Below, piece by piece: positions 23,618 to 27,777 of a DNA stretch of 64,000 bases. The translations under genes and the position numbers were made by a program. This stretch comes from Kineothrix sp. IPX-CK (GTDB lineage Bacteria; Bacillota; Clostridia; Lachnospirales; Lachnospiraceae), in NCBI RefSeq assembly GCF_039134705.1, contig NZ_CP146256.1:372001-436000 (forward strand), in the 5' to 3' direction. Position 1 is the first letter of the stretch, and each line of letters begins with the position of its first letter. The notes under the pieces were generated by a model. That model saw nothing but the letters and a program-made list of their open reading frames with translations. It made no database searches and had not been told where the DNA came from.

Positions 23618-23788
23618 TTAGCCCTGAGAAATAGCGCCAGTAGGGCAAACGCCTGCGCAAGAACCACAGTCGATGCAAGTATTAGCATCAATTTCGTATT
23701 GGCTGTCGCCTGCGCTGATTGCGCCAACCGGACACTGTCCTTCGCAAGAGCCGCAGCTTACACAAGAATCATTGATTACATATGCCAT
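23618..23788 (-). CDS. 2[4Fe-4S] ferredoxin
   Basis: Small electron carrier of 56 aa, starting MAYVINDSCVSCGSC. Two complete CxxCxxCxxxCP cluster motifs (CVSCGSCEGQCP near 9-20 and CIDCGSCAGVCP near 38-49) are separated by the usual spacer. AAGGAGGAATATC precedes the ATG. It has its own terminator. It likely serves pyruvate-linked or radical-enzyme electron transfer, such as reduction of the PFL-activating enzyme next door (inference). Confidence 0.95.
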   Translation of the reverse strand: MAYVINDSCVSCGSCEGQCPVGAISAGDSQYEIDANTCIDCGSCAGVCPTGAISQG

Positions 23789-23914: not shown

Positions 23915-24676
23915 CTAATGAGGCTGACCGGCCTCCGAGCGGCGCTTCTTGATTCCTTCAAGTATTACCTTTTTCTTTTCGGGAATCTTATTCTTATTCA
24001 TAGCAGGAACGCCGGAAAGCTTGTATTCCATATTGAGCTGCTTATACTTAGCTTCTCCCATCGTATGATAGGGGAGCACGTCCAGCGCTTTCAGATTGCT
24101 GAACTGACCGATGAAATACCCTAAATCGAACAGATACTTATCGTCATCGGTAAGTCCCGGCACTATCACGTGACGAACCCACATATCTACATGCTTCTCA
24201 TTCAGATACGCAGCGAAGGCGAGGATATCCTCATTGGGATATTCCGTAAGCTCTTTGTGCTTCAGGGAATCAATGTGTTTTATATCCAGCATGACCAAAT
24301 CGGTCAAGGCCATTAATTGATCCAGCTTCGCGATCCACTGTGTATTCTGCGCCTTGTATATGATGCCCGAGGTATCGATGCAGGTGTGAACACCTTCTTT
24401 TTTGGCGATGGTGAATAAATCGATGAGAAAATCGATCTGAACCAGCGGTTCTCCGCCGGTTACCGTCATTCCTCCGCTTTTGTAAAAGGCCTTGTTCCTA
24501 TTGTATTGTTCAAAGACTGCCTCCGGCTCCATGAGAGTGCCGGCATTCATTTCCCAAGTATCAGGATTGTGGCAATAAGCACAACGCATAGGGCATCCCT
24601 GCAAAAAGACGACAAATCTTGTACCCGGACCGTCCACCGTACCAAAACTTTCAATTGAGTGTATTCTGCCTTGCAT
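23915..24676 (-). CDS. pflA: Pyruvate formate-lyase activating enzyme
   Basis: Radical SAM enzyme of 253 aa that installs the glycyl radical on PFL using SAM and a [4Fe-4S] cluster. The cluster motif CPMRCAYCHNP lies near residue 30, with GTVDGPGTRFVVFLQG before it and the SAM-binding GGEP later. Two in-frame ATGs exist (24682 and 24676); AAGGAAG is spaced correctly for the second and too close to the first. It is downstream of both PFL subunits, beyond a hairpin at 24696-24728. Confidence 0.95.
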   Translation of the reverse strand: MQGRIHSIESFGTVDGPGTRFVVFLQGCPMRCAYCHNPDTWEMNAGTLMEPEAVFEQYNRNKAFYKSGGMTVTGGEPLVQIDFLIDLFTIAKKEGVHTCIDTSGIIYKAQNTQWIAKLDQLMALTDLVMLDIKHIDSLKHKELTEYPNEDILAFAAYLNEKHVDMWVRHVIVPGLTDDDKYLFDLGYFIGQFSNLKALDVLPYHTMGEAKYKQLNMEYKLSGVPAMNKNKIPEKKKVILEGIKKRRSEAGQPH

Positions 24677-24695
24677 GTCCATCTTCCTTTTCTTT

Positions 24696-24728
24696 TAAAA
24701 AGGGCCCTGAAACGGTTTCAAGGCCCTC
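24696..24728 (-). terminator. Attenuating terminator between PFL small subunit and pflA
   Basis: On the minus strand an 11-bp stem (GGGCCTTGAAA pairing with TTTCAGGGCCC, one mismatch) closes a short loop and is followed by TTTTT. It would make much less activase than lyase from one transcript, matching the catalytic need. Confidence 0.8.
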
Positions 24729-24750
24729 GATAATAATTGCTTTTGCGTAA

Positions 24751-24996
24751 TTATACAGATTCATGGAATGTACGTGAAATAACGTCATTCTGCTGTTCGG
24801 GAGTCAACTTGATGAAGTTAACCGCATATCCGGATACCCGGATGGTAAGCTGAGGATAGTTCTCAGGATGTTTCTGAGCATCCAGAAGAGTATCTCTGTT
24901 AAGAACGTTAACGTTCAGGTGATGCCCGCCCTTCGTTGCATATCCATCTAATAATGATACAAGGTTATCAACCTGTGCTGCGCTAATATCTGCCAT
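24751..24996 (-). CDS. Separate glycyl-radical subunit of pyruvate formate-lyase (GrcA-like)
   Basis: Protein of 81 aa that corresponds almost exactly to the C-terminal glycyl-radical domain of a standard PFL. It has [41 protein letters not shown] and [11 protein letters not shown]. The radical glycine is G56 in RVSGYA. It has its own AAAGGAGA eight bases before the ATG at 24996; the frame extends 12 codons upstream without a better site. Because the large subunit at 25284-27323 lacks this domain, the two must combine to make active enzyme. It is shorter than GrcA/YfiD (about 127 aa in E. coli), which rescues damaged PFL. Function by homology is strong; obligate pairing is inference. Confidence 0.9.
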
Positions 24997-25044
24997 TTTA
25001 TTTATCTCCTTTCGTGATGGAAAAATCATCATTGAAATTTCTCT

Positions 25045-25248
25045 TTATCGATAGTCGTCCAAGCCCTGCTCCAAGGTAGGAACACTGCATGCTAACGGGG
25101 TTCTGGAACAGTCTGTACATCCCAAGGTCTGAACGTTTTTCGATTCTTCCTGAGAATTGTCTACATCCACGTTTATATGACCTATACCTTGAAGCATGCC
25201 GGAATCCAACATCTTTACAATATCGTCAATCATTGTTTTCTCGTCCAT
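25045..25248 (-). CDS. Small cysteine-tailed protein between the PFL subunits
   Basis: Protein of 67 aa with its own AAAGGGG ribosome site. The first half (DDIVKMLDSG, then GIGHINVDVDN) lines up with the glycyl-radical subunit ([10 protein letters not shown], then [11 protein letters not shown]). The RVSGYA radical loop is absent. The second half instead holds three cysteines in GCTDCSRTPLACS and ends LEQGLDDYR. I know of no named family for it. It may be a structural partner, a docking subunit or a redox-responsive regulator of the split PFL. Spacing is 35 nt from the large and 48 nt from the small subunit gene, so one operon. Confidence 0.75.
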   Translation of the reverse strand: MDEKTMIDDIVKMLDSGMLQGIGHINVDVDNSQEESKNVQTLGCTDCSRTPLACSVPTLEQGLDDYR

Positions 25249-25283
25249 AACGAACCCCTTTCTTATTTCGCTTTATAATATAA

Positions 25284-27323
25284 TTAGCTATTTAAATCTA
25301 AATCGATGTCGCCTGCAAATACCTTATCCTCTTTACCGAGAGCTCCCGGGACGATAGAGAAGGTATTAGAGATACCATCCTGTGCATCTTCGAAAGGAAG
25401 CTTTGCAACGGAAGACAGAGAGGCGATAGCACCATGTGTATCGCGTCCGTGCATCGGGTTAGCGCCGGGGGCGAAAGGCTGGCCTTTCTTACGTCCGTCC
25501 GGAGTGTTTCCGGTAGCCTTGCCGTAGGTTACATTAGAAGTAATTGTAAGTACGGACATGGTAGGAACCCCATTTCTGTAAGTGTGATGTCTTCTGATAG
25601 CAGTCATGAATTTGGAAACGATGTCGTGAGCAATCTTGTCTACGCGGTCATCGTCGTTACCATATTTCGGGAAATCACCAGTGGTCTTGAAGTCTACGAT
25701 GATTCCGTCTTCGTCTCTGATGACTTCAACCTTCGCATATTTGATTGCGGATAAGGAATCGGCAACGATGGACAAGCCCGCGATACCAGTTGCGAAATAA
25801 CGCTTTACATCCCTGTCATGAAGAGCCATCTGTGCTCTTTCATAGCAGTATTTGTCATGCATATAGTGGATAACGTTCAAAGTATTAACATATACGTCTG
25901 CCTGCCATTCCATCATATCTGAAAACTTTCCTATTACATCATCGTAATCAAGAACATCGCCTTCTATCTTGCGGTATTTCGGGCCGACCTGTTTCTTTGT
26001 CACTTCGTCTACACCGCCGTTCAAAGCATAGAGCAAACATTTTGCGAGGTTAGCACGTGCGCCGAAGAACTGCATTTCCTTACCGATTACCATGGAAGAT
26101 ACGCAGCATGCGATACCGTAATCATCCGCATGTGTCACTCTCATAAGGTCATCGTTTTCATACTGTATGGAAGAAGTCTGAATAGACATTTTAGCGCAGT
26201 ATCTCTTGAAGTTCTCAGGAAGTCTTGTGGACCAGAGAACAGTCAGGTTCGGTTCCGGAGAAGCACCTAAGGTAGTCAGTGTGTGTAAATAACGGAAAGA
26301 ACTTTTCGATACCAGGTGACGTCCGTCAACACCAACACCGCCGATGGATTCTGTCACCCATACGGGGTCGCCTGCGAAAATCTGGTTGTACTCAGGAGTA
26401 CGGGCGAATTTCACGCATCTTAACTTCATAATGAAGTGGTCAATAAATTCCTGAATCTGCTCTTCGGTAAAGGTTCCGTTTGCCAAGTCTCTTTCTGCGA
26501 AGCAGTCGATGAAGGTAGAAGTACGTCCGAGAGACATAGCAGCACCATTCTGCTCTTTTACCGCACATAAATATCCGAAGTAAGTCGCCTGAATAGCTTC
26601 TTTTACATTAGTAGCCGGATTGGAAATATCGCATCCGTAAGAAGCAGCCATTTTTTTCATCATTTTAAGAGCTACGATCTGCTCGGAAATCTCTTCGCGA
26701 AGGCGCATAACATCATCGGTCATAACGCGTCCGGTAGAGTCCTTCTGAACAAGTTTGTCTTCAATTAATCGGTCGATGCCGTATAAAGCGACACGTCTGT
26801 AATCGCCAATGATACGTCCGCGTCCGTAAGCATCTGGAAGTCCTGTGATAATATGGGAAGAACGGCATGCTCTCATATCTTCGTTGTAAGCGTCGAAGCA
26901 GCCGGCATTGTGTGTTTTTCTATGAGTAGAGAAGAATTCGCTGATTTCGGGATCTACTTCGTAGCCGTTATCGGAGCAAGCTTTTTCTGCCATGCGGATA
27001 CCGCCATAAGGCTGTAAAGAACGTTTGAACGGTTTGTCTGTCTGGAAACCGACGATCGTCTCTTTGCTCTTGTCCAAGTAACCCGGTCCGTGAGAAGTGA
27101 TGGTGGATACAACCTTAGTGTCCATATCGAGAACACCGCCGGCTTCACGCTCTTTCTTCTGCAAATCAAGTACCATGTTCCATAAATCTTTTGTGTTTTG
27201 TGTAGCGTCAGCTAAAAAGGATTCATCTCCGTCATAAGGATGATAGTTTTTCTGGATGAAGTCGCGAACATTGACCTCATTTTCCCATTTGCCGCCTACA
27301 AAGTCTTTCCATTCTGGTCTCAT
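25284..27323 (-). CDS. pflB: Pyruvate formate-lyase large subunit lacking the glycyl-radical domain
   Basis: Protein of 679 aa (standard PFL is about 750-760). It converts pyruvate and CoA to acetyl-CoA and formate. The PFL barrel is complete: [42 protein letters not shown], the catalytic pair C406-C407 in [10 protein letters not shown], and [18 protein letters not shown] near the end. It stops at GDIDLDLNS, just where the glycyl-radical domain would begin; that domain is encoded separately at 24751-24996. AGGAGG precedes the ATG. The break falls at a domain boundary with a new gene in between, not at a frameshift. Confidence 0.94.
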
Positions 27324-27386: not shown

Positions 27387-27446
27387 ATTATAAGTGAAAG
27401 CCTCTTGCTGAGTCAAGCGACGGAATGTACTTTTTTAGGTACATTC
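27387..27446 (-). promoter_or_regulatory. PFL operon promoter with upstream inverted repeat
   Basis: Reading on the minus strand: TTGACT (27411-27416), 18 bp, TATAAT (27387-27392). Six bases upstream of the -35 is a perfect 8-bp inverted repeat GAATGTAC-N8-GTACATTC (27423-27446), centred near -53, the usual place for an activator or redox regulator to bind. The binding protein is unknown. Confidence 0.7.
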
Positions 27447-27585: not shown

Positions 27586-27777
27586 ATGGCAGAGATAACT
27601 AAGGATATGACAATTGGTGAAATATTGAGAATAAATCCTAATGTGGCACCTATTCTTATGGAAATAGGAATGCACTGCTTAGGTTGTCCTTCCGCTCAGG
27701 GAGAAACATTGGAAGAAGCAGCTATGGTTCATGGCATACAAATAGATGACCTGATGGAAAAAGTTGCAGCGGTATAA
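27586..27777 (+). CDS. DUF1858 domain protein
   Basis: Protein of 63 aa made of one DUF1858 domain: [31 protein letters not shown] with a CxxC pair, then [12 protein letters not shown]. Related domains occur alone or fused to hybrid-cluster and redox proteins and are proposed to act as redox disulfides or metal sites; their exact role is unknown. AAAGGAGG precedes the ATG. It is divergent from the PFL operon and may respond to the same redox state. Confidence 0.9.

Follow-up and report, generated by a model that had tools for sequence, protein, structure and literature searches.

How a pyruvate formate-lyase (PFL) operates when its radical-bearing domain is not part of the enzyme chain is the question raised by a locus in the genome of Kineothrix sp. 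IPX-CK (Lachnospiraceae; RefSeq assembly GCF_039134705.1). The window, meaning the whole stretch of DNA analysed, comprises 64,000 nucleotides (contig NZ_CP146256.1, positions 372,001 to 436,000 of the forward strand), and coordinates given without a label are counted from its first letter. PFL is a textbook enzyme destroyed by oxygen; descriptions place its radical domain within the single chain and treat the stand-alone domain GrcA as an emergency patch. In the window the barrel and the glycyl-radical domain (GRD) of the enzyme were found to be encoded by separate genes, with a third small gene between them for a GRD-related protein carrying two conserved cysteines. The genes concerned, together with that of the activating enzyme, are as follows.

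25284-27323, minus strand: barrel gene, first of the four in order (679 aa; TIGR01255, PF02901)
25045-25248, minus strand: middle gene, between the barrel and GRD genes (67 aa)
24751-24996, minus strand: GRD gene (81 aa; NF038360, PF01228)
23915-24682, minus strand: pflA, for the radical S-adenosylmethionine (SAM) PFL-activating enzyme (255 aa; TIGR02493, 290 bits, cut-off 231.75)

The barrel scores 1091.3 bits against TIGR01255 (cut-off 994.2) and 718 bits against PF02901, and the catalytic pair Cys406-Cys407 is present and conserved, which places it above the family cut-off with the adjacent cysteines that mark a PFL. The TIGR01255 match covers profile positions 2-665 of 744 and stops there, no GRD being present in the same chain, and the C-terminus carries neither a radical domain nor a cysteine tail. 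The separately encoded GRD matches the C-terminal half of PF01228 (positions 52-106) and belongs to NF038360 (GrcA3; 161.3 bits, above the cut-off of 158), while its score against TIGR04365 (GrcA/YfiD) is 101.1 bits, below the cut-off of 170. Its radical glycine is Gly56 in the motif RVSGYA. Ser55-Gly56-Tyr57 was invariant in 11 aligned GRDs, and the glycine and SGYAV were kept in 55/55 GRDs checked, only one of which contains a cysteine. A preliminary description of the locus, made from the letters of the DNA, had reported a barrel with Cys406-Cys407 that ends at the domain boundary and an 81 aa protein that is the missing C-terminal domain, each with its own start and ribosome-binding site; the coordinates hold, the profile matches agree with both assignments, and the barrel, middle and GRD starts are each preceded by a Shine-Dalgarno-like stretch, as read from the sequence.

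A frameshift or assembly error as the origin of the split was rejected. The arrangement recurs in 79 of 80 named public loci, chosen because they encode the middle protein, which have the barrel, the middle gene and a separate GRD on one strand (the remaining locus has the barrel and middle gene only). Comparison of the window with Kineothrix alysoides gave low ratios of nonsynonymous to synonymous substitution rates (dN/dS) of 0.046 for the barrel, 0.114 for the middle gene and 0.023 for the GRD, indicating purifying selection. The arrangement is stable, as had been supposed from the start.

The genome (4.72 Mb, one contig) encodes one PFL barrel. The preliminary description had proposed to search it for a full-length PFL, and no such enzyme was found with every candidate scored; an intact PFL that a spare part could repair is thus lacking from this cell. 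A second stand-alone GRD (79 aa, 87% identical to the first) is encoded at C1:2198357-2198596 on the minus strand (L001:1441-1680), unlinked to any barrel and beside an open reading frame (ORF) that resembles, and by eye is presumably, spoIIIAA. Two proteins could thus donate the radical to the window barrel, and there is no full-length enzyme to compete with it; hence the earlier claim that the 81 aa protein would be the only source of the radical holds for stand-alone GRDs, which are the sole source of the PFL radical in this genome, but not for that one gene. An extra GRD away from the barrel was detected in six other split genomes (G023, G032, G033, G065, G095 and G123). That of G080 is doubtful: it adjoins pflA where a contig ends, barely differs from the first copy and is possibly a duplicated contig end.

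The frequency of the split in Lachnospiraceae, a survey also proposed in the preliminary description, was assessed in 150 genomes of the family, one per genus, searched with TIGR01255. A readable PFL was present in 119, of which 56 had a split barrel with a separate GRD and 63 had full-length enzymes only; the remaining 31 genomes gave no match (18) or weaker or partial matches only (13). Three of the 56 split genomes additionally carry a full-length PFL and 53 show none, with the limit that in genomes with more than six candidates six were scored and a further full-length copy could be missed (e.g. G012). A barrel devoid of GRD accompanied by a separate GRD gene was confirmed in all 53 split loci fetched. 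Split forms are present in other families as well, as disclosed by a class-level sample of 293 genomes, from which 13 loci were chosen for a match to the middle gene or to a short GRD (three from the same family, one from the same order and nine from other families).

Two irregularities were observed among the barrels. At L198:3447-5585 a split-type barrel occupies two adjacent frames (291 and 420 aa), which may reflect a pseudogene, an error in sequencing or one more break of the gene. The barrels of L085, L086 and L087 match TIGR01255 in two stretches interrupted near profile position 535, a pattern that suggests an inserted or divergent segment at that point.

The preliminary description had mentioned the third gene as what separates the other two. 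The gene is indeed present, but it is not a mere separator, as it encodes a GRD-derived protein with two cysteines, and relatives that lack the gene carry a cysteine pair on the barrel tail. The product of the middle gene consists of a GRD-like helix and strand (about residues 1-33, with GGHxNV) followed by a tail containing Cys47 and Cys54 (DC..AC.VPTL..GLD). A search for homologues gave 1542 proteins with E ≤ 1, of which the 120 best all had E ≤ 1.5e-29, and the closest named relative is from K. alysoides (96%). In an alignment of 32 diverse middle proteins, which omits two shorter copies (L045 and L053), Asp15, Gly23, Cys47, Ala53, Cys54 and Pro57 are invariant and His24 and Asn26 nearly so. 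The motif (I/V)P(T/N)L..G.D after the cysteines is conserved across the middle proteins, and many copies contain three cysteines (GCxDC...AC). The dN/dS of the middle gene was 0.08-0.12 in four of six comparisons, those with computable dS. A chance ORF was rejected on account of the many homologues, the invariant residues and the purifying selection. A known small subunit was likewise rejected, given that no match was obtained in Pfam by a single-sequence scan, none above the cut-off in NCBIfam (sub-threshold matches only) and none that was convincing among PDB sequences (best E 0.44). A mobile element separating the two halves was set aside in view of the conservation of the middle ORF and its derivation from the GRD.

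The first half of the middle protein shares ancestry with the GRD. Comparison of the two alignments by hhalign gave 96.4% and a score of 51.7 over 36 columns, whereas no more than 25.9 was reached when the columns of the GRD alignment were shuffled 100 times; the trimming pattern had missed four middle sequences and one GRD, which are not part of this comparison. The RVSGY radical loop is absent from all 32 aligned middle proteins and the cysteine tail occupies its place. When middle protein and GRD are set in register without gaps, Cys54 of the window copy falls over Gly56. The distance from the conserved histidine to the cysteine is 30 residues in 15/32 middle proteins, 29 in six, 31 in four, 32 in two, 34 in one and 36 in four, so that 27/32 lie within 29-32, and the corresponding distance in the GRDs is 30 in 11/11. 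This register hints that a cysteine might stand at the position of the radical glycine, a suggestion only.

A further group of small, unlinked proteins was noticed (L102-L105 and L107-L110; frames of 68-99 aa, e.g. L104:2974-3198 and L108:2941-3147, both on the minus strand). They have a GRD- or middle-like N-terminus (23-33 bits) followed by the conserved motif YHHGRCD(V/I)GSP(W/F) and were found in eight genomes, every one with a split PFL. The three tested had no match in Pfam and none above the cut-off in NCBIfam, and no conserved neighbours were seen by eye. L106 has an N-terminus related to this group and a different tail.

The two-cysteine element was then followed across the 56 split genomes, i.e. 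the 53 fetched loci, the window genome and two genomes in which the locus is cut between contigs, with the middle gene sought at E ≤ 0.001. It occurs as a middle gene in 37 and as a tail of the barrel in 19, in no genome as both and in none as neither. Of the 37 middle genes, 35 adjoin the barrel and two are on another contig. Among the fetched loci, the middle gene lies close to the barrel in 32, and 19 have a barrel tail with the cysteine pair (e.g. LDCPDEACRIPNLMEGLDREF); the two with neither (G110 and G001) are those with the middle gene on another contig, at 35 and 79 bits. All 19 tails contain at least two cysteines. The middle gene was sought in the 63 genomes with full-length enzymes only and found in none, weak matches in G038 and G146 being their own GRDs. 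The linker between barrel and GRD of 30 full-length PFLs contains a cysteine pair in L019 alone and a single cysteine in L010. L019 (1465-3789) is a fused PFL lying inside the split clade, and its linker, TCGCEEVTC, looks like a relic or an intermediate. Among the class-level loci, 12 of 13 barrels were readable, six of them with the gene, five with the tail and one, L200, with neither; the tail of L198, its barrel being in two frames, is not counted. Some cysteines within the barrel are specific to the split form as well, e.g. that at alignment position 386 (read as Cys376), present in a fraction of 1.00 of split vs 0.40 of full-length enzymes, and these may reflect shared ancestry.

In a tree of 84 barrels all split barrels form one group with a support of 100, which also holds four fused enzymes. 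The same group has a support of 99 and 69 rows in a tree of 96 barrels, in which L200, on a long branch, is not part of it but joins full-length PFLs (support 90); owing to this position L200 looks like a second, independent origin of the split, devoid of the element. The four fused PFLs inside the group may lie outside it or be re-fusions, and the tree is compatible with either, since constraining the 65 main split barrels to one clade was not rejected (approximately unbiased test, p-AU 0.41). Tail and gene change at least 11 times on the best tree of 96 barrels and seven times on that of 84; many branches are weak, and well-supported branches force at least four changes for the tail. In the four independent pairs with good branch support, tail and gene change in opposite directions in nearly all pairings.

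A tentative explanation, regarded as quite possible though short of probable, is that of a non-covalent two-part PFL with an exchangeable radical subunit and, in addition, a thiol element acting on the empty barrel. The window enzyme would be the only PFL of the cell, with the substrate site and Cys406-Cys407 on the barrel; the 81 aa GRD, activated by the neighbouring PflA, would dock in the barrel and supply the glycyl radical, and after cleavage by oxygen a GRD would be shed, a new one coming from the operon copy or from the second, unlinked gene. The middle protein would be a third component of the barrel, a duplicated GRD in which the helix and strand used for docking persist, the radical glycine is gone and two conserved cysteines are present. 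This protein, or the barrel tail in relatives, would act for the barrel as long as no GRD occupies its slot, and its cysteines might protect or re-reduce the exposed catalytic pair, as the C-terminal dithiol of ribonucleotide reductase (RNR) does. In RNR a flexible C-terminal cysteine pair re-reduces the active-site disulfide; here a cysteine pair is seen on the barrel C-terminus or on a small partner, and its use in such a dithiol exchange would be a possibility.

The chemistry of such an enzyme can be judged in part from E. coli PFL cut at residue 695. According to the part of the report consulted (PMC8683613), this barrel binds YfiD too weakly to be measured and is activated 32-fold less, its activity equals that of the wild type once activated, and the authors read the loss of residues 696-759 as that of a recognition element. 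As far as these passages go, full activity after activation makes a naturally split barrel chemically credible, and the poor binding of the spare part implies that a split barrel has a problem of assembly or, alternatively, of thiol exposure. By analogy, the same data would fit, in part, the replacement of the GRD after oxygen damage.

The poor binding also speaks for a different role of the element, namely recognition or assembly: it would recruit the GRD or PflA in place of the contact made by E. coli residues 696-733, its cysteines binding metal or belonging to the binding motif. The element occurs where the radical domain is untethered, and the conservation of (I/V)P(T/N)L..G.D in the middle proteins, with the (I/V)P step in 11/19 tails, resembles a short linear motif. 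The cysteines are nevertheless more constant, as 8/19 tails keep them without that step, and the GRDs, with a cysteine in a single one of those checked, offer them no partner. Recognition is considered somewhat doubtful, and the thiol role is tentatively favoured over it, the cysteines being what varies least; of the readings considered, these two fit best. A more specific form of the thiol role, rather unlikely as a whole, makes the middle protein a decoy GRD with a cysteine at the place of the radical glycine, which would plug the empty barrel beside Cys406-Cys407 and by disulfide exchange keep or restore the thiols until a fresh GRD arrives, the insert having been reduced to a tail in relatives. 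If true, PFL would alternate between two inserts, one carrying the radical and the other carrying thiols.

Benzylsuccinate synthase and 4-hydroxyphenylacetate decarboxylase have small accessory subunits that bind metal or iron-sulfur clusters, and the element could similarly bind a metal ion or a small iron-sulfur cluster and stabilise the complex. The element is, after all, small, contains cysteines and accompanies a glycyl radical enzyme, and many copies combine three cysteines with the near-invariant His24. Two invariant cysteines are, however, too few for a cluster without other ligands and no such subunit family was matched in Pfam or NCBIfam, which leaves this role distinctly improbable. 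Homology to the docking half of the GRD together with the loss of the radical glycine would also suit negative regulation, the middle protein acting as a decoy in the competition for the barrel or PflA and keeping the enzyme inactive; this is judged very unlikely, given that 19/56 split genomes have only the cysteine tail, without a GRD-like half, so that the docking half is not the conserved part. That the split is dispensable or degenerating and the GRD merely a spare part for another PFL, as the annotation of its family as spare part GrcA3 might imply, is scarcely credible in view of the lack of a full-length PFL in the own genome and, as far as scored, in 53/56 split genomes, of the strong purifying selection and of the intact radical loops.

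Several observations weigh against the thiol-element explanation. As regards the register, five of the 32 middle proteins have longer linkers of 34-36 residues, and a forced global profile alignment misses the exact placement of cysteine on glycine. The tail is not uniform, the (I/V)P step being absent from 8/19 (e.g. DCACCEPN), and degenerate elements exist: the L045 and L053 middle proteins end after CxxC and the L195 tail is merely GCCEDNID. Three fused PFLs inside the split clade (L014, L015 and L021) have no element. The barrel of L200 (2796-5118) ends right after LGKDD with no tail, and no middle gene was found in its genome; PDB chain 38la ends at the same place, right after LGKED and without a cysteine tail. 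A split PFL therefore has no strict need for the cysteine element. The end point of 38la does not settle its lineage, since its score with L200 (1109 bits) does not exceed that with L037, a barrel of the main clade (1167 bits). The gene-tail exchange is based on only four well-supported pairs (p 0.125). For split against element there are three well-supported independent pairs, one going the same way and two showing no difference, and the association is on this account close to one evolutionary event. AlphaFold predictions were unusable, with a mean predicted local distance difference test (pLDDT) score of 52.6 for a natural barrel with tail (P0126) and 48.3 for a barrel-plus-middle read-through (L139), probably because the alignments consisted of closely related rows, so neither docking nor the placement of the cysteines has a model behind it.

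The four genes lie in the order barrel, middle, GRD, pflA, all on the minus strand, with gaps of 35, 48 and 68 bases. Further features of the locus are listed below.

27387-27416, minus strand: promoter-like site TTGACT-18-TATAAT upstream of the barrel gene (consensus match alone)
24700-24728, minus strand: hairpin with T run, terminator-like, between the GRD gene and pflA
23618-23788, minus strand: ORF for a small ferredoxin-like protein with eight cysteines, downstream of pflA
27586-27777, plus strand: small divergent gene for a DUF1858 redox-disulfide domain protein adjoining the barrel gene (TIGR03980)

The promoter-like site, known from its consensus alone, matches 11 of 12 consensus positions. 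Folding of 24690-24742 (minus strand) gave -20.6 kcal/mol (z -4.55; none of 200 shuffles as good), although a simple scan did not list the hairpin at 24700-24728. The barrel, middle and GRD genes look like one transcript and, as the hairpin and T run precede pflA, the latter may be transcribed separately or at a lower level. A relative of the ferredoxin-like protein is present in 29/53 split, 68/80 named and 3/30 full-length loci, the last with a flank of about 1.5 kb only and thus no fair control; it is possibly an electron donor to PflA. A relative of the DUF1858 protein is close to 24/53 split and 48/80 named loci, the flank of the full-length loci being too short as a control, and a link of this neighbour to thiol redox is possible.

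In sum, what was first observed at this locus is confirmed and its first interpretation partly supported. Parts of the form are already on record in databases: the GRD is catalogued as GrcA3 in NCBIfam and barrel chains to which no GRD was matched are deposited in the PDB (38la and 38lb), so that the split itself is not new. These entries suggest that others work on such barrels; no paper on a split PFL was found in the open-licence literature, which need not mean that none exists. The middle protein family, its GRD origin and its exchange with the barrel tail appear to be undescribed in the same literature, where the family, being nameless, could not be searched for by name. In nearly half of the sampled PFL-bearing genera of the family a separate radical subunit is the norm, and how anaerobes keep PFL working after brief exposure to oxygen thereby becomes testable. 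Every readable split barrel of the main clade comes with the cysteine element, a partner that has no name as yet and that several times changed place between gene and barrel; the element should indicate what PFL needs once its radical domain is untethered.

Among known systems, the closest solved barrels are those of PDB 38la and 38lb ('Formate acetyltransferase'), with 1075 and 1114 bits to the window barrel as compared with 975 for E. coli PFL. The GRD search matched neither chain, either of which may be a cut construct, and 38lb carries GECDMCEM with about 33 further residues. The split class II RNR of Pseudomonas aeruginosa (NrdJa/NrdJb) is likewise a radical enzyme in two polypeptides, in which, in the portion of the source seen, a separate subunit mediates reductive dithiol exchange (PMC4520616); enzyme and reaction differ from those of PFL, and the likeness is an analogy of function, not membership. 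E. coli PflB (PDB 1h16 and others; TIGR01255) has the same barrel, adjacent catalytic cysteines, kind of GRD and PflA activator, but is one chain, whereas the window enzyme is cut before the GRD helix, has the GRD as a gene of its own and adds a third small protein. Finally, YfiD/GrcA (TIGR04365; PDB 6owr) and GrcA3 (NF038360) are stand-alone GRDs that can complete a PFL barrel, like that of the window; E. coli YfiD repairs an intact PFL after damage, whereas the window GRD is a required subunit, since no intact PFL was found in its own genome.

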